A DNA stretch of 32,094 nucleotides from Candidatus Omnitrophota bacterium (GTDB lineage Bacteria; Omnitrophota; Gorgyraeia; Tantalellales; Tantalellaceae). Each line of letters opens with the position of its first letter. The stretch's first letter is position 1. Shown in pieces: positions 2,741-24,280 of the stretch. The position numbers and the translations under genes are program-made. The stretch is from positions 1-32,094 of the forward strand of contig WJMG01000043.1 of assembly GCA_014728075.1 (NCBI GenBank), written 5' to 3'. The notes under the pieces are model-generated. The model made no database searches and was not told where the DNA came from. It saw only the letters and a program-made list of their open reading frames with translations.

Positions 2741-5700
2741 ATGACAGGTATCAAAAGAACAGGAAACCCCCTTATGAAAATGATGAGCGTGTTGCTCATT
2801 TTCACTTTCATGTTCTACAACACCAGTTTCGCGGTACCGGAAGCGGATATCGCTCCTCCGGAAGCGGCAGATGTGTCGGCCCGTCCGCTTTTATCGGAGG
2901 AAGTAGGCGTGAGTATCGACGCGGGTACCGTAAAATCCAGGTACGACGGAGAATCGGGCAAGATGGTGGTCCATATACAGGACGCTCATTGTAATTACGA
3001 AGCCCAGAGCAACATAAACAGGATACTGGAACAGCTTACCAAAGAATGCGGTATAAACATCATCTCGGTCGAGGGGGCCGAGGGGATAGTGGATACCACA
3101 TGGTTCAAGGCCTTTCCCGATGAGGAGATACGCAAGGAAGTAGCTACTTATTTCATGAAGAAAGGGGAGATCACCGGTGCCGAGTTCTTCTCAATAACTT
3201 CCGATTTTAACGGAACTATATTCGGGTCCGAAACGCGCGACTATTACATAAAGAACCTCAAGGCCTTCACCGAAGTATATCCGTACAAGGATATGATCGA
3301 GAAGTATTTTCAGAACACCGGCAATATCGCCAACAGGCTGAAATCCGTAATATATACACCCGGGCTTCGTGAAGTCGATTCCAAAATAAGGGAGTTTGAC
3401 GGCAAAGGCCTGGAACTCAGCGATTATGCCGCTTATCTTTCCAAAAAGACCCGCGATCTGCGCATAGATAACAGGGATTATCCTAATTTCGGAAAACTGG
3501 AAAAGACACTCGAATACGAGGACAAGATAGATTTCGACATAGTGGATTCCGAAAGAAGCGAGTATATCGACCTTCTCAGCAAGACGCTGTCGAAGAAGAA
3601 GATGACCGAACTGGTCGGTGAGAGTATCCGGTTCAAGAAAGGCCACATCAAGGCCGTGGATTTTTATACATATCTGAGGGAGCTGGCAAAGGAACACGAC
3701 ATTGACATGGTCCACAAGTTCCCCAACCTTTTCTACTACTACATATACACTAAACTCTACGAGGGCATAGACAACGAGAAGCTTTTCAGGGAAATAGACC
3801 TTATAGAAACGGCCCTTAAAGAGAAACTTTTTACCAGCGGGACGGAAAGAAAACTTGATAAATACTCGTCGATGCTCGATATGTATGTGAACCTGGTGAA
3901 CATAGAGCTGACGAACGACGATTACGACAGGCTTAAGGCCTATCAGAAAGAATTTACCCTGTCGGATGTGATGTCTTTCCTTAAGAGCATGGTGGACAAG
4001 TACGGGATGAACTACGCCATAAACGGAGTGCCGGCGCAGATCAGCTCCAACATGCCCCGCATGATCGATTTTTACGAGATCGCCATGAAAAGGGACAAAG
4101 CCCTTATAGACAATACCCTGAACTTTCTCAGTAACGAGGACAACGACAGGTGCGTGCTCATAGCCGGAGGTTTCCATACCAGAGGAATAAAGAAAATGCT
4201 CGAGGCGAAAGGGATATCCTATGTCGTGGTGACCCCCAAGATAACAAAAGATGTCGAGACGCCCTACATAAAGGTTTTGACCAACCAGAGGACCTCTCTC
4301 GAGGATATAATAACCGAGAGCGCGGCCATGCCCGGAGCGAAATTGTCCGAAGAGGCTCCGGCGGCGGCCAGGGCAAAATTCCTCGGCGCCCAGTTCAGGT
4401 GCCAGCTGGTGGACATGTATCTCGCTGACGATCCCGAGCTCGCCGAGATGGCTTATCTCGAGGACGCCCTGAGCGACCGGGAAGTGGCAGAAGATGTGAT
4501 GAAGGGCTGGGTACGGGAAAATGTCGACAGATGGGTATCCAGGATGGAGAAGACCGTTCCGGAGGATCTCTGGAAAGAATTGAGCGGCGACAAGTGGATG
4601 TCCCTGAGCGGCGCCTATCTGATGCTCTGCGAAAAAGCGGCCGAGAACCTGGGTAAACCCCTTGACGACAGGACCAAGGCGGTTATTTCCGGTGTTTTCG
4701 AGGACAGGTTCAGCCCCGGAAGCGAACATGTGAAAAGAGGGACGCAGGATTCGCTTACCCCGGAAGAGGTAAAAGCGATGGACAGCGCCATAAAGGAAAC
4801 CCTTGATGCTATGGAAGCCGCGGGTATTCCCAGAAGCCGGATAGAGGTGCCCAACGAGGCTACGGGCGGTGTTTTCGTAGTGCTTGACGATGAGATATAC
4901 GCCGAAGCGGCCGGAAAATACAACGCTCCCGGGGATGTGGAATGCCATCCGGGGACCAGAAGGTCCAGGCTCGCCTTCGCGAGGGGTGAAATAGGTTACG
5001 AGGATGTCGAAAAGCGGTTTTATATAAGAAGGTCCCTGTTCGATAAACTTTCACCCGGGGAGAAAGATACTTTCGCCGCGCACGAGGAACTTCACATAAG
5101 GATCGCGCTTGGCCTTGTCGATCCCGCGGAAATCGCCAAGTTCGAGAACGAGGAGGCGTATGTTAACCACCAGATCGGAGCGGATATAAGGCCCATAATG
5201 GCTTCTCTGGGCAGTGTTTCGCATATCGAGGACCTTCTCAGGGAAGATGTTAAGTACGGCTCCGCGGCAAGGGAGCACATCGAGTCGGAACGCGGAAAGA
5301 TCGCCGCGTTGAGGGCTACAGGGGACCCGTCTAAAACAGAAAGGGCCGAGGCCCTGGAGGACGAACTCGAGGATTACGCGAAGGGCGTTTACACCCGGAG
5401 GATAAACCTGGACAGGATGCAGAGCGTACTTACCGATAAGGATTACCCGGGATACGATGTCATCATAGTCAGCAGCTCCACTCCCGAGGAGGTCGAGGCG
5501 CAGCAGAAAGCGCTCGACAAGCTTTTCGAGGGAAGGAGCACGGACAACGCCGCGATGAACAACAGGGTCTGCGTTATATCGGCCCTTGATGATTCCGAAG
5601 GCGGCCAGATAATCGGCCAGTTCAACACCTGGAGGGATGCCGGGAAAAGGTTCGCCGCCTGGGCCGAAAGGAACGGGCTCGAAGAGACCGACCTCGACTC

Positions 5701-8700
5701 CCTGGTAAAGAGCGGGGATATTAAGGTAGCGGTCTACCATAACGGCGGTAAGGGGGAAAGGGCGTCACCTGCTACCCAGGCCCTCCAGAACTCCAGGGCC
5801 AAACAGAAAGTCGTGGGTAAGGTAAAGACGGCCGCGAAAGGGGAAGAGGTTGACATCGAGCTTATGGCCGGCGTCGTGCTATCGACGGCCCCTCTGGCCC
5901 TTTCCAACGACGGGTCCCGGATAGATACTTTCTGGGCCAACCAGATGGCCTACGGGACGCTTGATTTTTCCGAACTTACAAGGACTAACTACCATTTCGA
6001 CAAATTCGTTATAAAGGTGCCGGAAGACCCCAAGAAGAAGGACCTTTTCGATTACGGTACCGCGGTAATAGGAGAATCCGGACAGATACAGAAATTCCTC
6101 GCCAACAAGGTGCTTACCAGGAAGAACGATGAGACCGGCCTTTACGAGGACAACCCGGATTACGCAGAGGAGATGCGCACGCTGATGGAAGCCCCCAAAG
6201 GGGTTTTTGATTTCGGGTCTTTCAGTATGGGAAGGGAGATGCATTACGCCCTCATGGACTACTGGACCAATGTCAAGAACATATTCGATGTTATCGATTC
6301 GAGCGAGGACAATAAAGCGGGGATGTCAAGGGACATAGACCCGGCCCTTGTACAGGTGATAGTTCCCCTGGCAAACGCGCTTTCGGGGAAAGAGCTCCCT
6401 GATCTTCCGGACCCCGAAACCCTCAGATCGATGAGGTCTCTTGAACGGGACGAGGAAGGCAATATAGAAATGGCCGCGGAAAAGAAGGCCGAACTGATGG
6501 AGGCTTACGGAAAGCTCATGTCCGTGATAGACGACGCAGACGCCGCGGCGGCCATCGAAAAGATCTATAACAATCCCGAAAAACAGGATTTCGTTCTGGA
6601 ATCCATCGAGTTCTTCATACTTTACAACGAGCTGTTCAGTGACATGGACAGGGTAGTGGGCCACATAGATATGGGCGAGAACAGCCACTGGTTCGCTTAT
6701 AAGAGAATACTGGACCTCAGCAACGAGAAGTTCTACATGCTTTCGGACATAATAGGGGCCAACCAGCAGATCGGTCCCGATGGTTCCGTTGTGATGACCG
6801 ACCTTTCGCCCGACGGGCTGGACGCCATAAGGGCCGAGGACGCCAGGAGGATGAGAGGTATAACCAACGAGGAAATAGCCGTATTCCTGGTCAACGGTGA
6901 AAGGATAGCCTTGACGGCGGACCAGGTGAAACAGGGATGGAGGGACGAGGAGAACGATATCGAGGTCAGGAACTCAGTGATACAGGGCGTTACGGTCCTT
7001 CTTCCCGGTTCCAGGGTCGTGAACAGCGTAGTCAACGACTCGCAGGGTAAGATAATCGCCGAGAACTCTTACATCGAGACCACCACGGCCAGGGAAATAG
7101 AGGCTGAGAACAGTATAGTGTATTACGCCGTGGACCCGGGAACCGTGAGGGCGGACAAGACCCTCATAGCGGACGCCTTCAGGCCGGATATCGAGGACCC
7201 GAGGTTCGGGCCGGGCCACACAAGGATGGAAGCGCCCATAGGCTACGACCCCAAGGGGAAAGAGATCAACGACAAGACGCTTTTCGGGACAAATGTCTAC
7301 ACCTTCAAACAGGTAAGGGATTTTTCCGCCAGCCGTGGTGAGGTGAATTCCGAAGATCTGCAGAAGGCCGCCAGAAGCGATGTTTTCTACGACATAGTCG
7401 ACAGGCGCAGCTGGGTGAACCTGTTCAAGGACCTGAAGTTCGGGACAAGCGGTCTCAGGGCCCTTGTCTACAACCCCGGGTACGGCAGGGACGAAGAGTG
7501 GCTTTCCGATATGGATGTTTACATAAGCACACGCGGGTTCATAAGGTTCCTCCGGTCGAGAGGGGACGAACTCGTGCCCGGACAGGACATAGCTGTAGGC
7601 GGGGACTTAAGGGACTCAACTCCGAGGATCATGTACGCCGTCATGCAGGCTGTAGAGGACATGGGATACAAGGTGGATTTCGTGGGCAGGGTGCCATCGC
7701 CCGCGCTGGCGTATTACGCCATGCAGAAGGGTATACCCAGCATAATGGTCACGGGCAGCCACATCCCCGACGACAGGAACGGGGTCAAGTTCACTAAAAA
7801 GTCCGGAGAGGTGTTAAAGAGTGACGAGAAAGAGATACTGGCCAATGTCGATAAAGAGAGGGAGGAGGAATATTCCAAGACCTGGGCCGAAACGAAGTTC
7901 AACGAGGAAGGCCTTTTCAAAGAGCCCCTTGATGAGCTTCCTCCCGTCAACGACGAAGCCGTGGAACTTTATGTGAAGAGATACGCCGAGGTTTTCACGG
8001 ACAGGCCTCTCGAGGGAGAAACGGTTGTGCTTTACAAGCATTCCGCCGTGGGCAAGGACATCATCCAGAGGATATTCGAGGCCCTGGGAGCGGATGTACG
8101 GGTCATAGCCGAGAGCGAAAGCTTTGTGCCGGTCGATACCGAAAAGATATCGGACCGGACTTACGATATTCTTGCTGAGGCAGCTAAACAGGAGCCGTTC
8201 GCCATTATTTCCACCGACGGCGATTCCGACAGGCCGCTTCTTGCTGATGGAAGAGGCAAATTTCTGCCCGGAGACAAGCTGGGCGCGCTCGTGTCCATGT
8301 TCCTCGAGCCCGATTTCGCAGCTTTTCCGGTAAGCACCAATCCCGCTGTGGCAAAGAGTCTTTCCGCGGAAGGGGTCGAGATAGAACAGACAAAGATCGG
8401 GTCTCCTTATGTGATCGCCGCGATGAACGAAAAGCTGGAACAGGACCCCGAAGCGAAAGTCGTGGCGTGGGAAGCTAACGGAGGGTTCCTTACGGGAAGC
8501 GACTGGCAGATAAACGGTAACACGCTCAAGGCGCTTCCCACCAGGGATGCCGCTCTTCCGCTGATCGCGGCTATGCTGCTCGCGAAAAGGGAGGGAAAGA
8601 CGGTTGCCGAGCTCATAGACGACAAACTTCCCCCGTTCGCTACGGCGGCAGGCGTAATCGACGATAACGCCAAGGGTACGGAGGATTATACCAGCGCCAT

Positions 8701-11410
8701 GGGGAAAGATATCGTCAGGAACTTTTCTCCGGAAAACCCGGATATAACCGAGGTCAGTTTCGACGCTTCGGGTAATGTGGAGGCGGTAAAAGGCGCCGAA
8801 CTGACCCCGGATATCGAAGAGGAAATGCGGGAGATAAGGAACAAACTCTCCGCGTATTTCAACAGGGACAGGGGTTTCGGCGAAATAGTTTCCGTAAATT
8901 TCCTCGACGGCGTCAGGATGACCTTCCTCACGGCCGAGGGCAAGGAGGAGATATACCACATAAGGCCTTCCGGGAACGCGCCGGAATTCAGGAATTACAC
9001 CGCCGCTGAGACCGAGGAAAGGGCAAAGGAAATGGCAGGGCTGCGCTTTCAGATCGTGCCTCAGATAGTCAGGGACATGAAAAGTCCCGGAGCCCAGGCG
9101 GTCAGGAGGAACATGCCCCGGTCCGATACTCCTCTCGGCAAGGTCGTACAGGCCATACTCGCCGCCAAGCCCGTATTCCTTAAGCCGTACCTGCACTTAA
9201 AGGTGTGGGGCGTGAACGGTGTGGGCGAGTACTGTTACGGTATAGAGAAAGGTGACGACAGCTCGACCGCTTCAGCCGAAGGCGAGGAAGCGTCGCTGGA
9301 AGAGCTTGTCGATCTTGTTCCCGAAGAACTGCTGGGGAAAGGGGTCGTCGAGAACTTCGGGGCGTCCATACCTCTGGTAAAGATACTTACGCCTAAGAGC
9401 AGGCTTTCGGTGCAGTTCCACGATTCCAAGAACGAGCTCTGGATCATCACCGGCATAGACGAGGAAACGGCCTGGGAAACACCTTCGGTGATCATAGGTT
9501 TCAGCGAAGAGTCAGTTGAGCGTTACGGGGACGAGGTTACCGAAGCGTACCGGGAAGCTCTTGAAAGGTACGGCGACAGGCTTAATTCACTGGCCGGTAT
9601 GATGGTGACCGGGGGTTATAAAGGTCTTCTTGACGAGCAGAAGGATATAGTGAAGGCCGCCGAGTGGGCTGTCGAAAGGAACGGAGAGAACTTTATCCAT
9701 AACGCGCTCGAACGGCTTAACGAAGCCAGGGAAGATCTGGAATGGTTCTATAACTACAGGGAGGTGAAAGTCGGGGATGTGGTCTCGATACCCGCCGGTA
9801 CGCTGCACGCCGCCGGTCCGGGGCTTGAGATACTCGAACCCCAGATACCCGGGCCTACACAGTCGCTGGAAGACGGTTCTACATGGCCCGTAAGGTACGC
9901 TTTCCCTAAATACACCGCAAGAAGCCCCGAGGCTACAAAGACGCTTGATGTGGGAAGGGCCGCAGAGATGATACCGGATGTGGCTTTACCCGATACTCCC
10001 GAGGTGGTGATGGAAGAGGAAGGCCTCATGATGGAGAGGATGCCCGGGGGCTTCGCCGATAAAGGGCTTGAGGTCCGCAGGATAAGCCTTGAAAAGGGTA
10101 AAGAGCTTTCGATAAGCGAGATAGAGAGTTTTCACAGCCTCGTTACGGTAGAGGGGCGGGCCAGGGCGATCATTGGCGGAGTAAGCTACGATATACCCGC
10201 TGCCACTCCCGACGGAGAGATGATGGTGATACCTTCTACGGTAGATACGCTTACCATCGTGGCGGATGAGGACGCTCAGATAATAGATACTTTCAGCCCG
10301 GTCCCCGCGCTGAGGAGGCTGGAAGAACCGATCAGGAGCAAGGAGAACGGTATCGCCGGCACGGCCAGCGAGGAAAGGCTGGTGTTCGCGGATTTCGGCA
10401 CCACGGTCTCGTCCCTGGATGAACTTTACATAATAGACGAGATGGCAGTGCCCGAGGTTATATCTCCCAGGGAACATGTGCTTACCGTGAAGGAAGGCAG
10501 CGTAGATCTCGTGAGGAGCTCGGACGGTAAAGTGATTGCGGAGCTGGAAGAGGGTGAAAGGTATGTGGTCCCCGAAGGGTTCGACGATTACATAATAGTC
10601 CGTACAGGGACAGTGAAGAACGCCGTGGTAAGAGTGGACTATCAAAAGACCGATATCGAGGAAATAGCTTATTCGGTCTACAACATGGTCAAAAAACACC
10701 TTAAGGAGATCAGGGCCGGCCAGATAGACCTTTTCCTGCCCCAGCAGATGTTCGCCGACAGCGGTGTGGGTTCCGCTTCCTGGATGGAGAAGTTCATACA
10801 GGAGTACATAAGCGAGACCATAAGGATAGAGACCTATAATCCGCACGGCGGTCTCAGCGAACTAGCCAAAAAGTCCATAAACAAGGGAGCCGTGGGAATA
10901 CTCGTCGCCCCGAAATCGAACATAGACGCGCTTAAGGACCTGGACGAGGATACGGACCTTTACGCGAAAGAGATAAAGGAATTCCTCTACGGCGAAAAAG
11001 GAACTTTGAGGACTCTGGCCATACCGGACATACATAAGGACAGCGAGATCGACAACAAAGGATGGTTCTTCAACCGGGAGGTCATAGGAACGGCCCTTAC
11101 GCTCGCAACGGTAAAGCCTGAACAGATAAGGGAGCTGACCGTGAACGAGCATATAGATAACGCCGCCGCCGATCTCAGGAAGATACTGGCCCAGCTTACC
11201 GGCAGGTCCGTTCCTCCGAGATACCTCTACTATCTCCTGTCGAGGAACGAGATTGAGGATCAGCTTGAAGCGCTTCCCGCGCAATTCCGGGACGATACCT
11301 TCGGCTGGCTGGCTTTCCTTGTGAACAACCTTCTTCTTAAAATGCCTATTAAGCCTTTTGATCCCAGCGATCAACTGGAACAGAGAAGAAAGGTCATGTG
11401 GTCGGTCTAA
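2741..11410 (+). CDS. Giant exported fusion: EreA/ChaN-like + sugar NTase-like + phosphohexomutase + phosphomannose isomerase
   Basis: 2,889 residues; start set by AAAGGAG 7 bases upstream. A signal peptide is visible ('MKMMSVLLIFTFMFYNTSFA'). Domains, approximate: 75-520 EreA/ChaN/TraB-like ('VHIQDAHCN', 'VEGAEG', 'AGGFHTRG' near 475); 540-880 unassigned, with HEELH at 781-785; 900-1370 sugar nucleotidyltransferase-like ('HNGGKGER' from 1000); 1375-1530 likely beta-helix repeats; 1560-2110 phosphoglucomutase/phosphomannomutase ('FGTSGLR' 1567, 'TGSHIP' 1671 with catalytic-type Ser1673, 'DGDSDRP' 1826, 'EANGGF' 1911, 'RPSGNAPEFRNY' 2075); 2145-2540 type I mannose-6-phosphate isomerase (Q2225, H2227, E2232, H2356 at metal-ligand positions); 2546-2632 extra cupin-like; 2638-2889 unassigned. 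The three enzyme modules also exist as separate genes directly downstream. Export of sugar-phosphate enzymes is unexpected. The domain calls are family recognition; activity and location are inference. Confidence 0.85.
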   Translation: MTGIKRTGNPLMKMMSVLLIFTFMFYNTSFAVPEADIAPPEAADVSARPLLSEEVGVSIDAGTVKSRYDGESGKMVVHIQDAHCNYEAQSNINRILEQLTKECGINIISVEGAEGIVDTTWFKAFPDEEIRKEVATYFMKKGEITGAEFFSITSDFNGTIFGSETRDYYIKNLKAFTEVYPYKDMIEKYFQNTGNIANRLKSVIYTPGLREVDSKIREFDGKGLELSDYAAYLSKKTRDLRIDNRDYPNFGKLEKTLEYEDKIDFDIVDSERSEYIDLLSKTLSKKKMTELVGESIRFKKGHIKAVDFYTYLRELAKEHDIDMVHKFPNLFYYYIYTKLYEGIDNEKLFREIDLIETALKEKLFTSGTERKLDKYSSMLDMYVNLVNIELTNDDYDRLKAYQKEFTLSDVMSFLKSMVDKYGMNYAINGVPAQISSNMPRMIDFYEIAMKRDKALIDNTLNFLSNEDNDRCVLIAGGFHTRGIKKMLEAKGISYVVVTPKITKDVETPYIKVLTNQRTSLEDIITESAAMPGAKLSEEAPAAARAKFLGAQFRCQLVDMYLADDPELAEMAYLEDALSDREVAEDVMKGWVRENVDRWVSRMEKTVPEDLWKELSGDKWMSLSGAYLMLCEKAAENLGKPLDDRTKAVISGVFEDRFSPGSEHVKRGTQDSLTPEEVKAMDSAIKETLDAMEAAGIPRSRIEVPNEATGGVFVVLDDEIYAEAAGKYNAPGDVECHPGTRRSRLAFARGEIGYEDVEKRFYIRRSLFDKLSPGEKDTFAAHEELHIRIALGLVDPAEIAKFENEEAYVNHQIGADIRPIMASLGSVSHIEDLLREDVKYGSAAREHIESERGKIAALRATGDPSKTERAEALEDELEDYAKGVYTRRINLDRMQSVLTDKDYPGYDVIIVSSSTPEEVEAQQKALDKLFEGRSTDNAAMNNRVCVISALDDSEGGQIIGQFNTWRDAGKRFAAWAERNGLEETDLDSLVKSGDIKVAVYHNGGKGERASPATQALQNSRAKQKVVGKVKTAAKGEEVDIELMAGVVLSTAPLALSNDGSRIDTFWANQMAYGTLDFSELTRTNYHFDKFVIKVPEDPKKKDLFDYGTAVIGESGQIQKFLANKVLTRKNDETGLYEDNPDYAEEMRTLMEAPKGVFDFGSFSMGREMHYALMDYWTNVKNIFDVIDSSEDNKAGMSRDIDPALVQVIVPLANALSGKELPDLPDPETLRSMRSLERDEEGNIEMAAEKKAELMEAYGKLMSVIDDADAAAAIEKIYNNPEKQDFVLESIEFFILYNELFSDMDRVVGHIDMGENSHWFAYKRILDLSNEKFYMLSDIIGANQQIGPDGSVVMTDLSPDGLDAIRAEDARRMRGITNEEIAVFLVNGERIALTADQVKQGWRDEENDIEVRNSVIQGVTVLLPGSRVVNSVVNDSQGKIIAENSYIETTTAREIEAENSIVYYAVDPGTVRADKTLIADAFRPDIEDPRFGPGHTRMEAPIGYDPKGKEINDKTLFGTNVYTFKQVRDFSASRGEVNSEDLQKAARSDVFYDIVDRRSWVNLFKDLKFGTSGLRALVYNPGYGRDEEWLSDMDVYISTRGFIRFLRSRGDELVPGQDIAVGGDLRDSTPRIMYAVMQAVEDMGYKVDFVGRVPSPALAYYAMQKGIPSIMVTGSHIPDDRNGVKFTKKSGEVLKSDEKEILANVDKEREEEYSKTWAETKFNEEGLFKEPLDELPPVNDEAVELYVKRYAEVFTDRPLEGETVVLYKHSAVGKDIIQRIFEALGADVRVIAESESFVPVDTEKISDRTYDILAEAAKQEPFAIISTDGDSDRPLLADGRGKFLPGDKLGALVSMFLEPDFAAFPVSTNPAVAKSLSAEGVEIEQTKIGSPYVIAAMNEKLEQDPEAKVVAWEANGGFLTGSDWQINGNTLKALPTRDAALPLIAAMLLAKREGKTVAELIDDKLPPFATAAGVIDDNAKGTEDYTSAMGKDIVRNFSPENPDITEVSFDASGNVEAVKGAELTPDIEEEMREIRNKLSAYFNRDRGFGEIVSVNFLDGVRMTFLTAEGKEEIYHIRPSGNAPEFRNYTAAETEERAKEMAGLRFQIVPQIVRDMKSPGAQAVRRNMPRSDTPLGKVVQAILAAKPVFLKPYLHLKVWGVNGVGEYCYGIEKGDDSSTASAEGEEASLEELVDLVPEELLGKGVVENFGASIPLVKILTPKSRLSVQFHDSKNELWIITGIDEETAWETPSVIIGFSEESVERYGDEVTEAYREALERYGDRLNSLAGMMVTGGYKGLLDEQKDIVKAAEWAVERNGENFIHNALERLNEAREDLEWFYNYREVKVGDVVSIPAGTLHAAGPGLEILEPQIPGPTQSLEDGSTWPVRYAFPKYTARSPEATKTLDVGRAAEMIPDVALPDTPEVVMEEEGLMMERMPGGFADKGLEVRRISLEKGKELSISEIESFHSLVTVEGRARAIIGGVSYDIPAATPDGEMMVIPSTVDTLTIVADEDAQIIDTFSPVPALRRLEEPIRSKENGIAGTASEERLVFADFGTTVSSLDELYIIDEMAVPEVISPREHVLTVKEGSVDLVRSSDGKVIAELEEGERYVVPEGFDDYIIVRTGTVKNAVVRVDYQKTDIEEIAYSVYNMVKKHLKEIRAGQIDLFLPQQMFADSGVGSASWMEKFIQEYISETIRIETYNPHGGLSELAKKSINKGAVGILVAPKSNIDALKDLDEDTDLYAKEIKEFLYGEKGTLRTLAIPDIHKDSEIDNKGWFFNREVIGTALTLATVKPEQIRELTVNEHIDNAAADLRKILAQLTGRSVPPRYLYYLLSRNEIEDQLEALPAQFRDDTFGWLAFLVNNLLLKMPIKPFDPSDQLEQRRKVMWSV

Positions 11411-11716: not shown

Positions 11717-13639
11717 ATGGAAAATAATATTATTAACAATGCGGAGCGTATGGCACGGGCCGCCTCCCTCGGTATCGGGGCGGACATAGTGATAGTGGTA
11801 AACTCTTCCGATACTCAGGCTTCTTTCTGGCAGGAAAGGCTTACCGGGGATGACGGGGTGCACGGTTCAGGGGTGGTGCTTAAGAAGGACGCCATCGTCC
11901 TTTCAGTTTCCGAGGCCCTGTGGGATGGAGAGGCGGGGAACGGTTTTGGGACCCTGAACGGGTTCGTAGAGGCGGCGATGAGAGCCGGAGAACTGGGCGT
12001 TCTTGATATGGAAGACGGCCTGGATATAGAGGATATATGCGGCGCGATGCTGTCTTTTTCCTCGGGAAAGACCGTTTTCATGTTCCATAACGCGGGCAAG
12101 GGCACCCGGGTATCTCCGCTTCCCGCCGCTGAAGCCAACTCCAAGCCCAACATCAGGCTTCCGGGAATGATAACCGTGACAGATACCGAAGGGACCCGTT
12201 CCGAGCCCATGACCATGCTGGAGGCCGTGCTAAGGGAGACGAGTGTTTACGCTCCTTCCCGAAAAGAAAGGCTCTGTGTGTTCTGGGGGGACCAGGTTAT
12301 CTTGAACGAGGAAAATATCGATAATGCCCCGGCGTTTCCCGTAGAGATATTCGGCGAGGTCGTGCCTCTTAACGAGGGAATCAGTTCTTACGGTGTCCTG
12401 CTCCCCCGGGAAGACGGGGGGATAGCCCAGAGAGAAAAACTTCCCCTTGATGAGGTCAGGAAGCTCCTGCCTCCCGGATCTGAAGAAGTCTGCAGGAGCA
12501 TAGGTTCTTTTACCGTCTCTTTCGGTTTTCTCGAAGCGCTTATAAGTATGCCGTATAACCTAGAGGCCCTTAAGCGCAGGAAGGGCCGGTCGGATACGGA
12601 CCCCGACTGGTGGCAGCCGCTTACTTCAGAGAGGCGGGAATACATCGGGGTTATGCGGGCTAAGGGGGTCCCGCCCGAAGAGGCCGGATCCGCCTGGGAC
12701 AGGATGAAAGAACTCAAAGAAGAATTCTTTACACGCGCCGCTCCGGAAACCACCGGAAAGCCTCTTGTGGGAGCCAGTAATGTAGGGAGGGATTCTTACT
12801 GGTGGGATTACGGACAGAACAGGTTTTATTTGAGGAATACCCGGCTGTTGACCTCCGACTCCCTTGAAGGAAGGGCCGCAAGGGTGTTTTTCGGTGTGGC
12901 CGAGGATAAATGGACGGTAGACTCCGAGACCGGTCCGGGATTCAGTTCGGAGGACTCAGTGATCATAGCTTCGGGCATAAAGAGGGGTAGTGTCAAGAAC
13001 TGTGTTATAATCGATTCCGAAATAGAAGAGGTCTACGCGGAAGATTCGGTGGTAATAGGGAGCCGTGTCATCGACCTCAAGGCTTATGGCTCTCTATGTT
13101 ACGGCGTCGCCGCCCGTGAAGTGAACCTGATGGGAGGAAAGGTGCTCGCGCATGTTTTCGTGCCTGGAGAGAGGCTTCCCGTGGAGATGAGGACGGACAT
13201 CGCCCGGGACGGGACAAAGGACTGGAAAGCCCGGGAAGGGAAGGGCGCGTTCGTTTACGACAATCTATATACCTATCCGGAAATAGCGCGGATGATGTCT
13301 AATGCTACAATAAAGGATGTCAGAAAAGCGAGGAACATTTTTGAGAACGGGATGCGGGAGAGAGCTTTTCCCGCTCCCTCCGCGAGAGTGAAGGAGCTCT
13401 CCTCCAGAAGGGGCGTTCCCGAAGAAGAAGCCAGGATGGCCGTTGCCCGGAGAATGCTCGCTTTCGGGGATGTAAGCTCGTTCACCGCTCGGGGGTATGC
13501 CGAAATTTTCGATATTCAGGGCCCCTGCGCCCTTTCACGGGCCGATCGGGAGCTGAAAAGATTAACAGGGGAAAATAACGGAAAGGAAGACCATGACGGA
13601 GAGCAGGCCTATGCTAAAGGACAGGAAGGAAATACTTAA
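11717..13639 (+). CDS. Sugar-nucleotidyltransferase-like protein with beta-helix domain
   Basis: 640 residues. The loop 'HNAGKGTRVSPLP' (H124 onward), with 'SKPNIRLPG' after it, resembles the nucleotide-binding G-x-G-T-R...K-P loop of sugar-1-phosphate nucleotidyltransferases, which join a sugar-1-phosphate and an NTP. Later segments such as 'SEDSVIIASGIKRGSVKNCVIIDSEIEEVYAEDSVVIGSRVI' look like the hexapeptide-type left-handed beta-helix that follows this domain in GlmU- and GlgC-type enzymes. It parallels residues about 900-1530 of the giant protein upstream. There is no signal peptide, so it is probably cytoplasmic. A mannose-1-phosphate substrate is inferred from the mutase and isomerase genes that follow; sequence alone does not show which sugar or NTP is used. 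The ribosome-binding site is weak, so the start is uncertain. Confidence 0.72.
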   Translation: MENNIINNAERMARAASLGIGADIVIVVNSSDTQASFWQERLTGDDGVHGSGVVLKKDAIVLSVSEALWDGEAGNGFGTLNGFVEAAMRAGELGVLDMEDGLDIEDICGAMLSFSSGKTVFMFHNAGKGTRVSPLPAAEANSKPNIRLPGMITVTDTEGTRSEPMTMLEAVLRETSVYAPSRKERLCVFWGDQVILNEENIDNAPAFPVEIFGEVVPLNEGISSYGVLLPREDGGIAQREKLPLDEVRKLLPPGSEEVCRSIGSFTVSFGFLEALISMPYNLEALKRRKGRSDTDPDWWQPLTSERREYIGVMRAKGVPPEEAGSAWDRMKELKEEFFTRAAPETTGKPLVGASNVGRDSYWWDYGQNRFYLRNTRLLTSDSLEGRAARVFFGVAEDKWTVDSETGPGFSSEDSVIIASGIKRGSVKNCVIIDSEIEEVYAEDSVVIGSRVIDLKAYGSLCYGVAAREVNLMGGKVLAHVFVPGERLPVEMRTDIARDGTKDWKAREGKGAFVYDNLYTYPEIARMMSNATIKDVRKARNIFENGMRERAFPAPSARVKELSSRRGVPEEEARMAVARRMLAFGDVSSFTARGYAEIFDIQGPCALSRADRELKRLTGENNGKEDHDGEQAYAKGQEGNT

Positions 13640-15287
13640 GGATATTGAACCCATCAGGTTCGGTACGAGCGGACTGAGGGACCTTGTCAGCGCGATGACG
13701 GACATGGAATGCTATATAAACGCCCGCGGGTTCATCCGTTTCCTTAAGGAGAGAGGAGAGATTTCCGCCGGTGAAAGAATAGCCGTAGGCGGTGACAGGC
13801 GTTCCAGCACGCCCCGGATAATAGCCGCGGTGGTGGAAGCGGTGAGAGCCGAAGCCTGCGGCGCGGTCTACACGGGGCTTGTACCGTCCCCTGTATTGGC
13901 GAATTATTCTCTCCGCTCCGGTATGCCCAGCATAATGGTGACCGGCAGCCATATCCCCGATGACAGGAACGGGATAAAGTTCACCAAAACGACGGGGGAG
14001 GTGCTGAAGTCCGACGAAGCGGATATATTGCGTAATGTTGCTTCCGCGAGGGAAGAGGAGTATTCAAAGAGCTGGGACGAAACGGCTTTCGGCGCTGACG
14101 GTATGTTCAGAGAGGGGAAAGAGCTTCCCGAGGCCTCGGACGAAGCCGAAAAGATGTATCTGAAAAGGTATCTGGATGTTTTCCCCCCGGATTGCCTCAA
14201 GGGCCGGAAAATAGTTCTGTACCAGCATTCGGCAGTGGGAAGGGACCTGGTCGCGGCCGTTTTTTCCGGGCTCGGGGCGGAGGTCGTTCCGGTGGGAAGA
14301 AGCGAAGAATTCGTTCCGGTGGATACCGAGAAAATATCCGCTTCAACCGCGGATATCCTTTCACGGTCCGCCCGGGAGCACTCTCCTTTCGCCATAATAT
14401 CAACCGACGGGGATTCGGACAGGCCGCTGCTTGCCGACGAGAACGGGCATTTCCTGCCCGGGGACAAGCTGGGAGCTCTCGTTTCGATGTACCTTGAACC
14501 CGATTTCGCGGCCATACCCGTCAGCGTGAACCCCGCCGTGGTAAAAGCCCTTGCCGCCGAAGGGATAGAGGTGCGTCAGACCAGGATAGGGTCTCCCTAT
14601 GTTATAGCCGCGATGAACGACAAACTGGCGGAAGATCCGGAAGCCGGGGTCGTGAGCTGGGAATCGAACGGCGGTTTTCTTACGGGAAGCGACTGGAACA
14701 TAGACGGTAAGCGGCTTCCCGCGCTTCCTACGCGTGACGCGGTGCTTCCCATGCTGGCGGTCATGCTTCTGGCGGCGCGCGAGGATAAAAAGATCTCGGA
14801 AGTGGCCTCCTCCAAACTGCCTCCGTTCTATACAGCGGCGGGGGTGGTCGATAATAAGGACGAGGGCGCCGAAAGTTATACCTCGGAAATGGGGCGCGAG
14901 ATAATACGCTCTTTTTCACCGGATAAGGCGCCGGTCAGGGAGGCGGAGTTCGATGTTTCGGGTCAGGCGGCCGTCCTTAAAGCTGAGTGCGGTGAACGGA
15001 CGCCGGAACTGGACAGGGAGCTCCTGGAAATAAGGTCCCGGCTAAAGAAGTATTTCAGCCCGGATAAAGGGTTCGGCGAAATAAAGTCGCTGAACTTCCT
15101 TGACGGCATAAGGATCACTTTCGTTACGGCTGAAGGCAGGGAAGAAGTATCCCACCTCAGGCCTTCCGGTAACGCCCCCGAGTTCAGGAATTACGCCGCG
15201 GCGGGATCGGAAGAAAGGGCTAAAGAGATAGCGGATAAGCGGTACGAGATAGTTCCGGAAATGGTCGCCGACATAGGCGCGGGATAA
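13593..15287 (+). CDS. Phosphomannomutase/phosphoglucomutase
   Basis: 564 residues, alpha-D-phosphohexomutase family, interconverting hexose-6-phosphate and hexose-1-phosphate. All four family motifs are visible: 'FGTSGLRDL' (23), phosphoserine loop 'TGSHIPDDRNG' (117; Ser119), metal loop 'DGDSDRP' (272), sugar-binding 'ESNGGF' (357) and phosphate-binding 'RPSGNAPEFRNY' (523). The loops are of the TGSHIP/DGDSDR variety rather than the textbook TASHNP/DGDGDR. The start at 13593 is preceded by AAAGGAAG and overlaps the end of the upstream gene by 47 bases, which suggests translational coupling. It is very similar over its whole length to residues 1560-2110 of the giant protein, with long identical stretches around each motif. 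Mannose specificity is inferred from the adjacent isomerase. Confidence 0.9.
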   Translation: MTESRPMLKDRKEILKDIEPIRFGTSGLRDLVSAMTDMECYINARGFIRFLKERGEISAGERIAVGGDRRSSTPRIIAAVVEAVRAEACGAVYTGLVPSPVLANYSLRSGMPSIMVTGSHIPDDRNGIKFTKTTGEVLKSDEADILRNVASAREEEYSKSWDETAFGADGMFREGKELPEASDEAEKMYLKRYLDVFPPDCLKGRKIVLYQHSAVGRDLVAAVFSGLGAEVVPVGRSEEFVPVDTEKISASTADILSRSAREHSPFAIISTDGDSDRPLLADENGHFLPGDKLGALVSMYLEPDFAAIPVSVNPAVVKALAAEGIEVRQTRIGSPYVIAAMNDKLAEDPEAGVVSWESNGGFLTGSDWNIDGKRLPALPTRDAVLPMLAVMLLAAREDKKISEVASSKLPPFYTAAGVVDNKDEGAESYTSEMGREIIRSFSPDKAPVREAEFDVSGQAAVLKAECGERTPELDRELLEIRSRLKKYFSPDKGFGEIKSLNFLDGIRITFVTAEGREEVSHLRPSGNAPEFRNYAAAGSEERAKEIADKRYEIVPEMVADIGAG

Positions 15288-15362: not shown

Positions 15363-16562
15363 GTGAACAGCGATACCGAAAGATCGAAAGCCGCAATGAA
15401 AATAGCTGACGCTGTCAGGCGGGGGGAACCCGTGTACCTTGAGCCGTACCGGGAGCCCAAGGTCTGGGGGGTGGAAGGCATCGGCGAATACTGGTACGGC
15501 GCCGAGGAGGGAGAAAAGAGTTCGATAGCTGTCTCCGGCGGCTGCAGGTCCCCTTTTTCGGAAGTTATGAAGATTTGCGCGCCGGAAGTTCTGGGGAAAA
15601 AGGTTGTACGGTCCTTCGGGGCGAGGCTCCCTCTGGTCAAGATACTCACACCGAAGAACAGGCTTTCCGTCCAGTTCCACGACGCGAAGAACGAGTTGTG
15701 GGTCGTAACCGGTGTGGACAGGGAAGTTGCCTGGGAGACCCCGGCGGTGATAATCGGTTTCAGTCCGGAAAAAGTGGAAGCGTTCGGTAGCGGTGTAACG
15801 GAGAAATACCGGGACGCGCTTGAGATCTACGGGGACAGGCTGGACGCTCTCGTGCAGACCATGATATCTTCCGGGCTCGAAAGAGAGATGGAGAGGGTAA
15901 AGAACGCGGCGGTGGCGGCCGAAAATCCTGACGCAAGCCCGGATGTGAAGAAGGCCCTTGAGGAATTCAGGCGTGCCGAGGAGGAGCTTGAGAGTTTCTA
16001 TAATTACAGGCCCGTAGGCGTCGGGGATGTCGTGGCCGTGCCTTCAGGCACACTTCACGCGGCGGGACCGGGCATAGAGATAGTCGAGCCGCAGATACCC
16101 GGCCCTACGCAGTCACTTGAGGACGGGGCCACTTATCCCGTGAGATACGCTTTTCCCGGATACGCCTCCAGATACCCCGGGGCCGGGAAAACCCTGGATG
16201 TGGAGAGGTGCGGGGAGATGAAGCCTGAAGTGGCGCCTGAGGACGCGCCCGAGGTCCTGAACGACACGGAAGATATAAAACTGGAAAGGCTGCCGGGCAA
16301 CTTTTCGGACAAGGGCCTTGAGGTCAACAGGATAACCCTGTCCCCCGGAGCCGCTTACTCCGTGAGCGGGAACGGCAGCTTTCACAGCCTTGTGGCAGTG
16401 GAGGGAAGCGCGGATATAGCGGTCGGGGAAAATAAGAGGGGAATACCGGAAGCTGTCCCGGGCGGTAGAATGCTTCTGGTACCCGCCTCGGCCGGGGATT
16501 ATGTGATATCGTCGGATAACGGGGCAAGGATCATAGATACTTTCAGCCCCGTGAAAGAGTGA
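15363..16562 (+). CDS. manA: Type I mannose-6-phosphate isomerase
   Basis: 399 residues; interconverts fructose-6-phosphate and mannose-6-phosphate. 'LSVQFHDAKNELW' (Q104, H106, E111) and 'VPSGTLHAAGPG' (H232) correspond to the zinc ligands of the cupin-type PMI family ('QVHP...E' and 'PAGTIHA'). The C-terminal part ('NGSFHSLVAVEGSADI...') is the second cupin half. The GTG start has GGGAGG four bases upstream. It is the last gene of the three-gene operon, 75 bases after the mutase gene, and is followed by a terminator. It parallels residues about 2145-2540 of the giant protein but lacks the extra cupin and C-terminal domains found there. The gene symbol is by family and not proven by orthology. 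Confidence 0.87.
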   Translation: MNSDTERSKAAMKIADAVRRGEPVYLEPYREPKVWGVEGIGEYWYGAEEGEKSSIAVSGGCRSPFSEVMKICAPEVLGKKVVRSFGARLPLVKILTPKNRLSVQFHDAKNELWVVTGVDREVAWETPAVIIGFSPEKVEAFGSGVTEKYRDALEIYGDRLDALVQTMISSGLEREMERVKNAAVAAENPDASPDVKKALEEFRRAEEELESFYNYRPVGVGDVVAVPSGTLHAAGPGIEIVEPQIPGPTQSLEDGATYPVRYAFPGYASRYPGAGKTLDVERCGEMKPEVAPEDAPEVLNDTEDIKLERLPGNFSDKGLEVNRITLSPGAAYSVSGNGSFHSLVAVEGSADIAVGENKRGIPEAVPGGRMLLVPASAGDYVISSDNGARIIDTFSPVKE

Positions 16563-16728: not shown

Positions 16729-17637
16729 ATGGGCGAAGAAACTTTCTTACAGAAGCTTAACCGGCAGAAGATATCTTATCTGTTCATAATAGTTCCTCTT
16801 GCCCTGTTTATCGTTTTTCAGCTCGCCCCGGTATTTATTTCCTTTCTGTGGTCTTTTACCAAATACGATGTTTTAAGCTCTCCGAGGTTCGTGGGGCTTG
16901 AAAATTACAGGAATATACTTTTTAACGACCCGCTTTTCTGGAAAGCGATGAAGAACACCGTTTTTTATGTTCTTGGCGTTGTTCCCGCCGGGGTCTGTCT
17001 TTCTCTTCTTTTGGCGGTCGCCATAGACCAGAAGATAAGGTTCAAGAACTTTTTTAAGTCTATTTTCTTCCTTCCTACCGTGACGGCCATAGTGGCCGTT
17101 TCCGTAATTTGGAAATGGCTTTACGCGGGGGAGAAATACGGACTTCTGAACTACTGGATAATGAAGCTGGGGTTCCAGCCGGTGGACTGGCTGGCGAGCC
17201 CGGAATGGACGCTTCCTTCGATAATGATAATGTCAATATGGGCCGGGCTGGGATACAATATGATACTTTTTCTCGCGGGTCTCCAGACCATTCCCTCGGC
17301 GATGTACGAAGCCGCCGACATCGACGGAGCGGGTTTCTGGGATAAGTTCTTCAATATAACGCTCCCGCTGCTTAAACCCACAATAGTTTTCGTTACGATG
17401 ATGAGCTTCATCTTCAGTTTCCAGGTGTTCGAGCAGGTCTATATCATGACCGGAGGCCAGGAAGGCATAGGAGGAGTGCTTAACTCAGCGCTGACAATAG
17501 TCGCTTATCTTTACGATAAAGGGTTCCAGAAATTCCAGATGGGTTACGCCTCGGCGCTGGCGTATCTGATCTTTTCATGTATATTCGTGCTTACCATGGT
17601 GAACAAGCGCCTTATGAAGACGGAAGTCAGGTATTGA
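16729..17637 (+). CDS. ABC sugar transporter permease, MalF/UgpA type
   Basis: 302 residues with about six membrane spans. The cytoplasmic EAA loop that contacts the ATPase is visible as 'EAADIDGAGFWDKFFNITLPLLKP'. Members of this family (carbohydrate uptake 1, CUT1) pair with a MalG/UgpE-type permease, here the next gene 24 bases downstream, and with a solute-binding protein, here at 24281. The start has AGAGG upstream. It is the first gene of the locus. The transported sugar is inferred to be a manno-oligosaccharide from the two GH113-like genes; the sequence of the permease itself does not tell. No ATPase gene lies in the window. Confidence 0.93.
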   Translation: MGEETFLQKLNRQKISYLFIIVPLALFIVFQLAPVFISFLWSFTKYDVLSSPRFVGLENYRNILFNDPLFWKAMKNTVFYVLGVVPAGVCLSLLLAVAIDQKIRFKNFFKSIFFLPTVTAIVAVSVIWKWLYAGEKYGLLNYWIMKLGFQPVDWLASPEWTLPSIMIMSIWAGLGYNMILFLAGLQTIPSAMYEAADIDGAGFWDKFFNITLPLLKPTIVFVTMMSFIFSFQVFEQVYIMTGGQEGIGGVLNSALTIVAYLYDKGFQKFQMGYASALAYLIFSCIFVLTMVNKRLMKTEVRY

Positions 17638-17661
17638 CGGCAACTTAAGGGATATTAAAAC

Positions 17662-18510
17662 ATGTTTCCGGATACAGGAATAGGAAAAGAATCGCTGGTA
17701 ATCAAGACATTCATTTATGTCTTTCTCATAGCGGGCGCCGTGACCATGGCGCTTCCTTATGTATGGATGCTTGTGACCTCGTTCAAACCCCTTGAGGAGA
17801 TACACGCTTTTCCGCCGACCTTTATGATAAAGAACCCGACTCTCCAGCCCTACAAGGACCTGTTCAGCATGATGCCCATGATGAGGTATATGTTCAACAG
17901 TCTTTTTGTTGCCGGCGCGGTAACGCTTTTCAATGTGTTCGCCACTTCTCTGGCGGGTTACGCCTTCGCGAAACATAAATTCTGGGGAAGGGATATCATA
18001 TTTTTCCTGTTTATAGGTTCTCTGATGATACCCTGGCAGGTCAACATAATACCGGGGTTCGTCATAGTCAAAAAACTCGGATGGCTTAACTCGTATAAAG
18101 GTCTTATCATACCTTCGATGGCGTGGTGCGCTTTCGGGATATTCCTGAACAGGCAGTTTATATACAGTATCCCGGACGACCTCATTGACGCGGCCAGGAT
18201 AGACGGCTGCAGCGAGTTCATGATCTACAGGAAAGTAATACTCCCTCTGATAAGGCCGGTACTTTCAACCATGGCTATTTTTACTTTCCTGCAGCAGTGG
18301 AATAATTTCGTATGGCCTCTGGTCGTTATACATACCAGCCGGATGAGGACCATACCGCTTGCGCTGGCCGTGCTTACGGGCCAGTTCGGGTCCAAGTTCG
18401 CCATGGTTATGGCCGGGGCGGTAGTAGCCACGCTGCCGATACTCATAGTGTATCTGGTCTTTCAGAAATACATCATAAAGGGTGTGGCCATGACGGGGCT
18501 TAAGGCATAA
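17662..18510 (+). CDS. ABC sugar transporter permease, MalG/UgpE type
   Basis: 282 residues, about six membrane spans, with EAA loop 'DAARIDGCSEFMIYRKVILPLIRP' and the N-terminal 'YVWMLVTSFKP' typical of the second CUT1 permease. It forms the membrane channel with the preceding gene product. A G-rich AAGGG lies upstream of the start. A 118-base gap with its own -10 element separates it from the lipoprotein gene downstream. Confidence 0.93.
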   Translation: MFPDTGIGKESLVIKTFIYVFLIAGAVTMALPYVWMLVTSFKPLEEIHAFPPTFMIKNPTLQPYKDLFSMMPMMRYMFNSLFVAGAVTLFNVFATSLAGYAFAKHKFWGRDIIFFLFIGSLMIPWQVNIIPGFVIVKKLGWLNSYKGLIIPSMAWCAFGIFLNRQFIYSIPDDLIDAARIDGCSEFMIYRKVILPLIRPVLSTMAIFTFLQQWNNFVWPLVVIHTSRMRTIPLALAVLTGQFGSKFAMVMAGAVVATLPILIVYLVFQKYIIKGVAMTGLKA

Positions 18511-18587
18511 ATCCCGTTCTGTAAGGTATTTGCGAGGGGGGGTGAACACCTCAGCTCAGATTTGTGATGGCGGGTTTTGCCGCCGTG

Positions 18588-18596
18588 TGCTATAAT
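18588..18596 (+). promoter_or_regulatory. Extended -10 promoter element
   Basis: TGC-TATAAT (18588-18596) is an extended -10 element with no good -35 box, 32 bases before the GH113-like lipoprotein gene. It may give that gene extra or separate transcription within the locus. Confidence 0.45.
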
Positions 18597-18628
18597 AACC
18601 GTACCATTTTAACTTAAGGAAAGGTGAT

Positions 18629-20263
18629 ATGAAGAAACTACCGGTACTGCTTTTGTTCTTTCTATTTTCAATAATGTCCGTTTCGGGTTGTTCCCCCGAC
18701 GGGGAGGCGGGAAATGACGAAGCCGGAAGTGAAACCCTTACAGCTTCGGAAACCCTTATAGAGGTCGTGGAAGTCCCCGAAGGGGAAGAGCTTGTATACC
18801 TTGAGGTATCGGATGCCGAGGCGTCATCGTTCGACCGGACCCCGGACTGGGCTCCGGAACCGGACCCCATGGCCCCCGCTGACGGGGATATGCTTACCCG
18901 GTGGTCAAGCGATTATATCGAAGGCCCTCAGTGGATCTATTTTGACCTGGGAGGGGAGCAAGTGATAAGCAATGTCGTGGTCCGCTGGGAAAGGGCTCAC
19001 GCGACCGAATACAAGATACAGGTATCTAATGACGCGGAGAACTGGAAAGATGTTTACCACGAAACGAAGGGGACCGGAGGCACGATGGAAGCCTCCTTCC
19101 CGCCCGTTAAAGCCCGGTATCTCAGGATAATCGGCCTGAAAAGGGTTAATGAAAGCTGGGGTATATCCATATGGGAGGTCGAGATCTACGGCCCGGCTTC
19201 CGAAAATCCCGGAGCCGGGATGACCAAAACGGAATACCTGTCCCGGGGCAACGACCAGCAGAAGGCCAAAGAAGCGGAAGAGCTTCTGGAAAGAATGGCG
19301 GCGGAACCCGTTCCTCTTAGTGAAGAGGACTTCCAGCATGGGGTGGTATACACTTCCTGGATGGCCAACGAGTTCCTCCTTCCTTCTTCCGATCTCACCC
19401 TGGCCAGGCTCAGGCAGATAGGGTACGATACTATTGCCATAATGGTACCCGCTTACCAGGACGAGCTCAGGTCCGATACGGTTTTCACCAATGATGTCGA
19501 GGGAGGGGATACCCCCACCGACGAGGCGCTCGTGCACGCCATCAAGACCTGCCACAGGATAGGGCTCAGGGTAATGATAAAGCCCCATGTCGATCCGCGC
19601 ACGGATGAGGCCCGTATTAACATCATGGCCTCGGAAGAGTGGTTCGACAGCTACGATGAGTTCATAATGCGGTATGCCAGACTCTCCGCGGAGAACGATG
19701 TGGAGATCTTCTGTATAGGAACAGAGCTCGAAGCCACCACCTTCGAGGCCTGGACTCACCGGTGGGAAGGCCTTATAGATAAGGTGGAACAGGTTTACGA
19801 CGGCGAGCTTACTTATGCCGCCAACTGGACCGAATACGAAGGGGTCCCGTTCTGGGACCGGATGGACTATATAGGGATAGACGCCTATTTTCCTCTTACA
19901 CAGGAAAGCGATCCCACCGTCGAGCAGCTTACCGCGGCCTGGGACGGGATAGCCGATAAGATAGAGAAGTGGCTCGGAGATAACGGGCTGACCGGAAAAG
20001 GCGTCATACTTACCGAAATAGGGTACCCTTCGGCGGACAGGGCAAACACCCAGCCGTGGGTCGCCATAACTAACATAGAGGATCAGCAGGAACAGGCAGA
20101 TTGCCTTGACGCTGTCTTCAGGGCGCTTTCAAAAAGGAACTGGTTCAAGGGATACTACATATGGCAGTACTTCCCCCAGGACAGGTGGAGCCCCCTGGGA
20201 TTCACGGTCAAGGACAAGAAGGCAGAGGAAGTGCTGAAAAAGTGGGTCAAGGAACTTCAATAA
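18629..20263 (+). CDS. Lipoprotein with F5/8C-like domain and GH113-like glycosidase domain
   Basis: 544 residues. The lipoprotein signal ends in 'SVSGC' (Cys21), so it is probably anchored to a membrane outside the cytoplasm. Residues about 40-190 form a discoidin/F5-8C-like sugar-binding domain ('GDMLTRWSSDYIEGPQWIYFDLGG' and 'ARYLRIIGLKR...WGISIWEVEIYG'). Residues about 235-544 form a TIM-barrel glycosidase similar to GH113 beta-1,4-mannanases, with likely catalytic Glu366 in 'CIGTELE' and Glu463 in 'LTEIGYPS'. Known GH113 enzymes cleave beta-mannan or manno-oligosaccharides. The start is supported by AAGGA eight bases upstream. A second GH113-like protein lies at 21806. The family call is by motif; the substrate is inference. 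Confidence 0.8.
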   Translation: MKKLPVLLLFFLFSIMSVSGCSPDGEAGNDEAGSETLTASETLIEVVEVPEGEELVYLEVSDAEASSFDRTPDWAPEPDPMAPADGDMLTRWSSDYIEGPQWIYFDLGGEQVISNVVVRWERAHATEYKIQVSNDAENWKDVYHETKGTGGTMEASFPPVKARYLRIIGLKRVNESWGISIWEVEIYGPASENPGAGMTKTEYLSRGNDQQKAKEAEELLERMAAEPVPLSEEDFQHGVVYTSWMANEFLLPSSDLTLARLRQIGYDTIAIMVPAYQDELRSDTVFTNDVEGGDTPTDEALVHAIKTCHRIGLRVMIKPHVDPRTDEARINIMASEEWFDSYDEFIMRYARLSAENDVEIFCIGTELEATTFEAWTHRWEGLIDKVEQVYDGELTYAANWTEYEGVPFWDRMDYIGIDAYFPLTQESDPTVEQLTAAWDGIADKIEKWLGDNGLTGKGVILTEIGYPSADRANTQPWVAITNIEDQQEQADCLDAVFRALSKRNWFKGYYIWQYFPQDRWSPLGFTVKDKKAEEVLKKWVKELQ

Positions 20264-20296
20264 CTCAAAACTCTTAAATAAGAAGGAGGTCATAGA

Positions 20297-20881
20297 ATGA
20301 AAAAGAGTCTGGTATTGCTTATGACGGCGGCTTTTCTCTTCGCGGGATCCGCTTACGCGGAAGAAGTTGTCCTTTTCGATTTCGAGGAAGGGCTGCAAGG
20401 TTGGGAAATACCCGATTGGGCTTTTGAAAAACCCGACATGGTCCAGAACGAGATAGATATTTCGTCCGATTACGCTTCCCACGGCGATTCAAGCATGATA
20501 ATGGATGTGGATTTCACCGGCGGCAGGTGGACCGGAGCGATCGTCGAGATCATGCAGTATTACGACTGGACGGACTACGGTACTCTCGCCGTTGATATAT
20601 ATCTGCCCAAGGACGCCCCCATGGGCCTCAGGGCGAAAATGATACTTACCGTCGGCGACAGCTGGAAATGGGTGGAGATGAGCAGGACTTACGCCCTTAA
20701 ACCCGGCGCGTGGACGACCATAAGCGCGGACCTCAAGCCGGGTAGTATCGACTGGAGAAGGATACAGGTCGACGAATCCTTCCGGAAGGATGTGCGCAAG
20801 ATAGATGTAAGGATAGAGTCCAACAACAGGCCGGCTTATACCGGTAAACTTTACATAGACAATGTAAGGGTCATAGAATGA
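20297..20881 (+). CDS. Secreted small carbohydrate-binding-like protein
   Basis: 194 residues with a cleavable signal peptide ('MKKSLVLLMTAAFLFAGSAYA'). The mature part begins 'VVLFDFEEGLQGWEIPDWAF' and ends 'GKLYIDNVRVIE', the start and finish of a jelly-roll carbohydrate-binding fold such as those attached to mannanases and glucanases. Aromatic residues (several W and Y) are frequent. The ribosome-binding site is very strong (AAGAAGGAGGT). It lies 33 bases after the GH113-like lipoprotein gene and has a lipoprotein paralogue next to it. It has no visible catalytic residues, so it may hold or present the polysaccharide. The exact CBM family cannot be named from reading. Confidence 0.75.
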   Translation: MKKSLVLLMTAAFLFAGSAYAEEVVLFDFEEGLQGWEIPDWAFEKPDMVQNEIDISSDYASHGDSSMIMDVDFTGGRWTGAIVEIMQYYDWTDYGTLAVDIYLPKDAPMGLRAKMILTVGDSWKWVEMSRTYALKPGAWTTISADLKPGSIDWRRIQVDESFRKDVRKIDVRIESNNRPAYTGKLYIDNVRVIE

Positions 20882-20984
20882 CAACAGCGTTAACGGCCCC
20901 GAAAAGGGCCTGATCCCGCGCGCGCCGGCCGCGGGGAACGCCCGTGCCGGCAGCGTGATCACTCAAGAGGGAGGTAGCAGTATT

Positions 20985-21683: not shown

Positions 21684-21688
21684 AAAAG

Positions 21689-21740
21689 ACAAGCTGTAAG
21701 CCGGCCAGAAAAAACTCAAAAGGCTTACGGCTTGTTTTTT
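21689..21740 (+). terminator. Rho-independent terminator inside the mannan-type locus
   Basis: ACAAGCTGTAAGCC (21689-21702) pairs with GGCTTACGGCTTGT (21722-21735), 14 bp with one G-U pair and a 19-base loop, followed by T-rich sequence. It would end transcription after the binding-protein pair, so the genes from 21806 onward probably need readthrough or their own promoter. Confidence 0.75.
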
Positions 21741-21805
21741 GAGACGAAAATCAGAACTTATTAAATCCTGTTAACGGTTTTATAGAAAGACCGAAGGGGG
21801 AGATC

Positions 21806-22963: not shown

Positions 22964-23008
22964 AAGGCCAAAGTTCATCAAAAGGGCGCATCTATAAGGA
23001 GAACCGGT

Positions 23009-24265: not shown

Positions 24266-24280
24266 CGAAGGGGTATTTCA

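Follow-up and report, generated by a model that had tools for sequence, protein, structure and literature searches.

The fusion gene at positions 2741-11410 (forward strand, as are all features below) of the window, by which we mean the whole 32,094-nt stretch analysed, encodes a chain of 2,889 residues in which a predicted signal peptide, an EreA/ChaN-like head, an HExxH zincin-like domain, a putative nucleotidyltransferase (NTase), a phosphomannomutase, a phosphomannose isomerase, a cupin-like module and a C-terminal domain follow one another in this order. We give an even chance to the interpretation that this protein is a Sec-exported multi-enzyme giant, bearing active mannose-phosphate and sugar-nucleotide modules on a shared carrier, with a mutase re-taken from the adjacent operon. 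An earlier sequence-only reading had described one exported-looking chain with mutase, isomerase and NTase domains behind an EreA/ChaN-like front, and this description holds, the frame being intact and the motifs present. That reading had not noted the HExxH domain, the adjacent cytoplasmic homologues, the giants in tandem or the signature at the tail.

The window is a complete contig (C30) of a genome of 2.10 Mb that is 94% complete and that, by its relatives among named records, belongs to an uncultured member of Candidatus Omnitrophota. The contig comes from a MAG, and an assembly or frameshift artefact could thus be suspected, but we regard this as having next to no chance of being correct: the single open frame contains no internal stop, and full-length co-linear homologues in other genera, from independent MAGs, exclude a join or frameshift. 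AGGAG, a Shine-Dalgarno sequence, lies directly 5' of the ATG. The earlier reading had named such a break inside the gene as grounds for refutation, and none was found.

The phosphomannomutase/phosphoglucomutase domain (residues 1564-2110; 7430-9070) is recognised by Pfam, with domains I-III above the cut-off and IV below it, and aligns to the solved bacterial phosphomannomutase 4hjh with an E-value of 8e-76. Its loops FGTSG, TGSHIPDDRNG, TDGDSDRP, WEANGG and RPSGN are all intact, and it has the four domains, the phospho-Ser, and the DGD metal, E-x-NGG sugar and R-x-SGN phosphate loops of PMM/PGM enzymes. The serine loop TGSHIPDDRNG is identical in 4hjh, its nearest solved relative, which however stands alone without a signal peptide, whereas the fused mutase is part of an exported-looking chain. 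Wherever an exported copy extends over the Ser-His, DGD, E-x-NGG and R-x-SGN loops, these are retained (12 copies, 11 genera); the copy in L055 has lost FGTSG and has RASGN, and those in L073 and L081 have an altered serine loop with Ser-His still there. The type I phosphomannose isomerase domain (residues 2134-2521; 9140-10303) is divergent, matching NCBIfam manA with an E-value of 1.4e-7 and 31 bits, below the cut-off of 116, and its best PDB match has an E-value of 0.047. Its metal-site motifs QxH, E and the H in AGTxHA are present, and are kept in 4/4 exported copies. The bifunctional PMI-GMP of the AlgA/ManC type likewise fuses enzymes of the mannose-phosphate/GDP-mannose route; it joins the isomerase and guanylyltransferase of GDP-mannose synthesis, is cytoplasmic, and has a type II isomerase and no mutase.

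The putative NTase and a beta-helix-like part occupy residues 904-1540 (5450-7360), with GGKGER at 1002-1007, and were assigned by motif, model and fold search; the fused NTase has no Pfam match. The glycine and arginine of GxGxR are invariant in 19 sequences. An AF2 model of moderate confidence (pLDDT 67) gave as its top Foldseek match the GDP-fucose pyrophosphorylase of the fucokinase/GDP-fucose pyrophosphorylase FKP (9iis, 9iit; E 1.7e-4), with a partial aligned part and a low TM-score; the weaker matches below it are mostly sugar nucleotidyltransferases. In FKP the pyrophosphorylase is joined to a kinase and is cytoplasmic, unlike the exported-looking setting of the fused NTase.

Could these be dead enzyme folds reused for structural or ligand-binding purposes? 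The enzyme set is incomplete in several relatives, and NTase motifs other than the glycine and arginine vary in some exported copies, which would fit such reuse. The catalytic loops of mutase and isomerase are nevertheless retained, even on long branches, and the mutase tree described below points to fresh capture from active genes, which makes this explanation improbable. Relic domains were rejected for mutase and isomerase on the retained catalytic motifs. Since the mutase loops are kept in divergent exported copies, catalysis is favoured, and both fused enzymes are probably active. The claim that their motifs are intact, and that they are not obvious relics, is accordingly strengthened, while the alternative offered alongside it, that the domains now serve as glycan-binding or structural parts, is disfavoured where these two are concerned.

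The three genes immediately 3' of the fusion encode an NTase, a mutase and an isomerase without signal peptides, in the same order as in the fusion: a cytoplasmic nucleotidyltransferase homologue (11717-13639, found by profile match), a phosphomannomutase 61% identical to the fused domain (13593-15287, Pfam and alignment) and a phosphomannose isomerase 54% identical to its fused counterpart (15363-16562, Pfam/NCBIfam and alignment). From 16729 to 25516 a mannan-use locus comes next, encoding ABC permeases, two GH113 proteins, a ROK protein, a solute-binding protein and modules that bind mannan, CBM27 among them. The layout of fusion followed by operon recurs in L051, L055, L057 and L064. The mutase tree places the window's fusion among cytoplasmic copies from its own and a related genus (support 100/97), and the fused copy of genus G005 next to the cytoplasmic copy of G005 (92/98); given the branches with good support, location must have changed at least twice. 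A single ancient mutase fusion is rejected by this tree. The simplest reading is repeated capture of the mutase from the adjacent operon, or gene conversion from the neighbour, which would give the same picture.

The remaining domains are less easily named. The head (about residues 45-535; 2873-4345; motifs IQDAHCNYEAQ, VEGA and GGFHT) was assigned from weak profile matches and a structure model. PF04187 (ChaN) matches 7/30 heads, weakly (best 3e-4), and although the head model is confident (pLDDT 85), it has no significant relative among PDB folds, EreC and the EreA-like 3b55 appearing only at E > 1, within noise; a head profile found no match among PDB sequences. We therefore call the head EreA/ChaN-like and not a proven member. 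The putative zincin domain (residues 584-905; 4490-5455) is assigned by a conserved motif, HEELH at 781-785 (nt 5081-5095), and HExxH is retained in 13/13 homologues covering it. A small module at residues 2533-2608 (10337-10564) was delimited by a home-made profile and assigned as cupin-like by eye only. The C-terminal domain (residues 2617-2889; 10589-11407; profile and alignment) ends in the tail signature MPIKPFDPSDQLEQRRKVMWSV (nt 11342-11407); domain and tail have no Pfam match, and among homologues of the fusion protein just two columns of the domain are invariant, the penultimate serine being one.

The complete domain order is found in two other genera, G009 (L051, whose contig is also the named record L138) and G006 (L055, with its 5' end cut off). 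Partial sets occur in others: L054 has no clear isomerase, L061 and L058 have no NTase, L117 has the NTase only, L118 the isomerase only, and L084 none of the three enzymes. Because relatives hold subsets of the enzymes or lack all three, the protein is best seen as a carrier, made up of head, zincin, cupin and C-terminal domain, with the enzymes as its cargo. For the same reason, a complete extracytoplasmic pathway is not a constant feature, and the absence of NTase or isomerase in several relatives counts against exported enzymes. The earlier reading, which had suggested a sugar-nucleotide pathway outside the cytoplasm, anticipated neither this inconstancy nor the large family of giants and the origin of the mutase from the adjacent cytoplasmic gene.

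The tail signature is some 25-30 residues long and reads roughly P-x-h-x-[KP]-h-D, followed by charged residues and a last A, V or L. It is found in most fused giants, its carriers including L054, L074, L080, L122 and L134. A tail profile at E < 0.001 matched 26/444 complete ORFs, all of them long and either signal-bearing or 5'-cut, and none a cytoplasmic enzyme; for two of the 26 the signal was missed by the genome-wide scan and is visible in the comparison of head N-termini. The last residue is A, V or L in 35/41 fused-head proteins versus 78/314 signal-less proteins (Fisher p 5e-14). We looked for the signature in head-only secreted proteins and in cytoplasmic enzyme copies and did not find it. 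The fusion protein itself does not match the profile, its tail MPIKPFDPSDQLEQRRKVMWSV being tied to the others through intermediates, of which KLPAQPFDARDEFHKRREALWSV in L117 is an example. The signature also occurs in proteins that have a signal but no head (L020, L074 and L080). It looks like a candidate sorting or retention signal and predicts a sorting machine that can be sought. PEP-CTERM/exosortase cargo has a C-terminal TM segment and a basic tail; an exosortase is encoded in the host genome, but the tail contains no TM segment and is thus not PEP-CTERM. As for T9SS, whose cargo bears a Por secretion tail domain, the tail has no Pfam match, and a search of the genome run without a positive control gave no SprA match.

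The putative signal peptide (residues 1-31; 2741-2833; cleavage predicted between SFA and VP) was recognised by direct reading and by its likeness to the hydrophobic N-termini of other heads. K5, R6 and K13 precede MMSVLLIFTFMFYNTSFA, after which V follows the cleavage site, and direct reading and a home-made scan place small residues at -3 and -1. A hydrophobic N-terminus is present in all heads with a complete 5' end. Paralogues keep the sequence of this hydrophobic core to an unusual degree, with F..[YQ][NQ]...A preceding the site of cleavage. After residue 60 the fusion protein has no segment of TM strength (best 19-residue Kyte-Doolittle value 1.49). Cysteine makes up 0.30% of the giants versus 1.32% of signal-less proteins, and the three fused enzymes contain 2 in 1,624 residues versus 13 in 1,603 in the three neighbouring enzymes (p 0.004). 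A general loss of cysteine in exported mutases was rejected, as those of other genera are not uniformly Cys-poor. Signal, tail signature, lack of TM segments and low cysteine each support export of the whole chain indirectly, and we infer such export from the sequence.

The N-terminus could instead anchor the chain in the inner membrane, the enzymes facing the cytoplasm and forming a metabolon close to the mannan importer. All substrates are cytoplasmic, and the neighbouring genes encode the soluble homologues and an ABC importer. Yet the hydrophobic stretch is preceded by positive and followed by acidic residues, a charge pattern that predicts an N-in/C-out orientation, stand-alone head proteins with a similar start look secreted, and cysteine is low, so that we consider this arrangement unlikely. 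The sequence-only reading had raised the possibility that the signal does not export the whole chain; the sequence leaves room for this, but tail signature, absence of other TM segments and low cysteine oppose it.

Under our preferred interpretation, the signal peptide would take the chain over the inner membrane, and the C-terminal signature might then sort or retain it. Catalytically competent modules would have been inserted into a carrier common to relatives without enzymes, and the neighbouring mannan-use operon, whose products are cytoplasmic, would have supplied the mutase repeatedly. Outside the cytoplasm, the enzymes might have sugar phosphates or sugar nucleotides as substrates, the likeliest source being contact with, or lysis of, another cell. 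The periplasm is normally without sugar phosphates and GTP, which counts against enzyme action there; the mutase and isomerase reactions need no NTP, and the nucleotidyltransferase reaction is reversible with pyrophosphate. The NTase could therefore work in reverse as a pyrophosphorylase, salvaging sugar nucleotides to hexose phosphate.

The fusion protein belongs to a family. Searches and genome stretches gave a census of about a dozen head proteins in the host genome, with frames of up to 10,567 aa. Positions 1-2511 encode the C-terminal 836 residues of an upstream giant ending in the tail signature, and the window shares an exact overlap of 141 bp with contig C32 (L009-L011); joining the two extends this giant to about 4,870 aa and reveals four giants in tandem (at least 2,988, about 10,540, about 4,870 and 2,889 aa). 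Pfam has no match over most of the two 10.5-kaa giants. Other exported-looking giants, L013 (C76), L018 (C53), L019 (C68) and L014 (C6), contain protein kinase, ABC1 kinase, M48, GGDEF (WGGDEF intact), HATPase and metallophosphatase domains.

The nucleotide-dependent domains among them (protein kinase, ABC1 kinase, GGDEF) would suit delivered effectors, that is, giants entering a host or prey cell whose cytoplasm gives GTP and sugar phosphates, where the enzymes would alter or exploit sugar-nucleotide metabolism. A predatory or parasitic way of life is presumed for Omnitrophota, and their giant ORFs have been linked to it (PMC10066038; PMC12419801). No delivery system tied to the giant family was found, however, no ATP/ADP translocase match appeared in the genome in a search without a positive control, and the mannan-use locus is of a free-living kind; delivery therefore seems to us rather doubtful. 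Returning to export, a broader proposal, which we put forward tentatively as possible but not probable, is that Omnitrophota perform sugar-phosphate and sugar-nucleotide chemistry outside the cytoplasm on secreted giant scaffolds with a new kind of two-ended sorting (conserved signal peptide and short C-terminal signature), resupplied with active enzymes by repeated capture of neighbouring cytoplasmic genes.

Giant ORFs of Omnitrophota are established (Seymour et al. 2023, PMC10066038), the V. archaeovorus protein reaching 39,678 aa. Those giants share with the fusion family the phylum, a presumed extracellular location and the occurrence of several per phylum member; they are reported to be poorly conserved, with TM helices, domains of adhesin type and little else annotated, whereas the present giants are soluble and conserved, consist of sugar-phosphate enzymes and share both head and tail. 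PMC12419801 mentions gigantic Omnitrophota proteins that combine polysaccharide-biosynthesis enzymes, kinases and peptidases; the combining of enzymes in giant chains is shared, but those proteins are defined by a Lipocone domain and TM segments, and in the passages covered there is no mention of the head, the tail signature or operon capture. According to PMC12057145, a preprint connects the giant genes found in these lineages with predation. In full-text literature, outside subscription papers and preprints, we did not find this architecture, capture from a neighbouring operon or the tail signature described. The earlier remark that no described protein with this domain order was known stands for the same full texts, with the qualification that giants with polysaccharide-biosynthesis domains were known. 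Conserved head, zincin and end-tag provide a handle on a whole class of giants so far described as poorly conserved and lacking a known function, and finding sugar-phosphate enzymes intact within chains that look exported goes against the rule that this chemistry is cytoplasmic; the enzyme modules are small enough for testing one by one.

A first scan of genome contigs with the whole fusion protein as query gave no relative. The genome collection holds 568 head-encoding stretches, and the best 80 of the 568 are nearly all from Omnitrophota, on which grounds a strain oddity was rejected. Outside the phylum, Candidatus Auribacter fodinae (L174) encodes the head as well as a protein of 3,221 aa that has an HExxH motif and a mutase match in split form.
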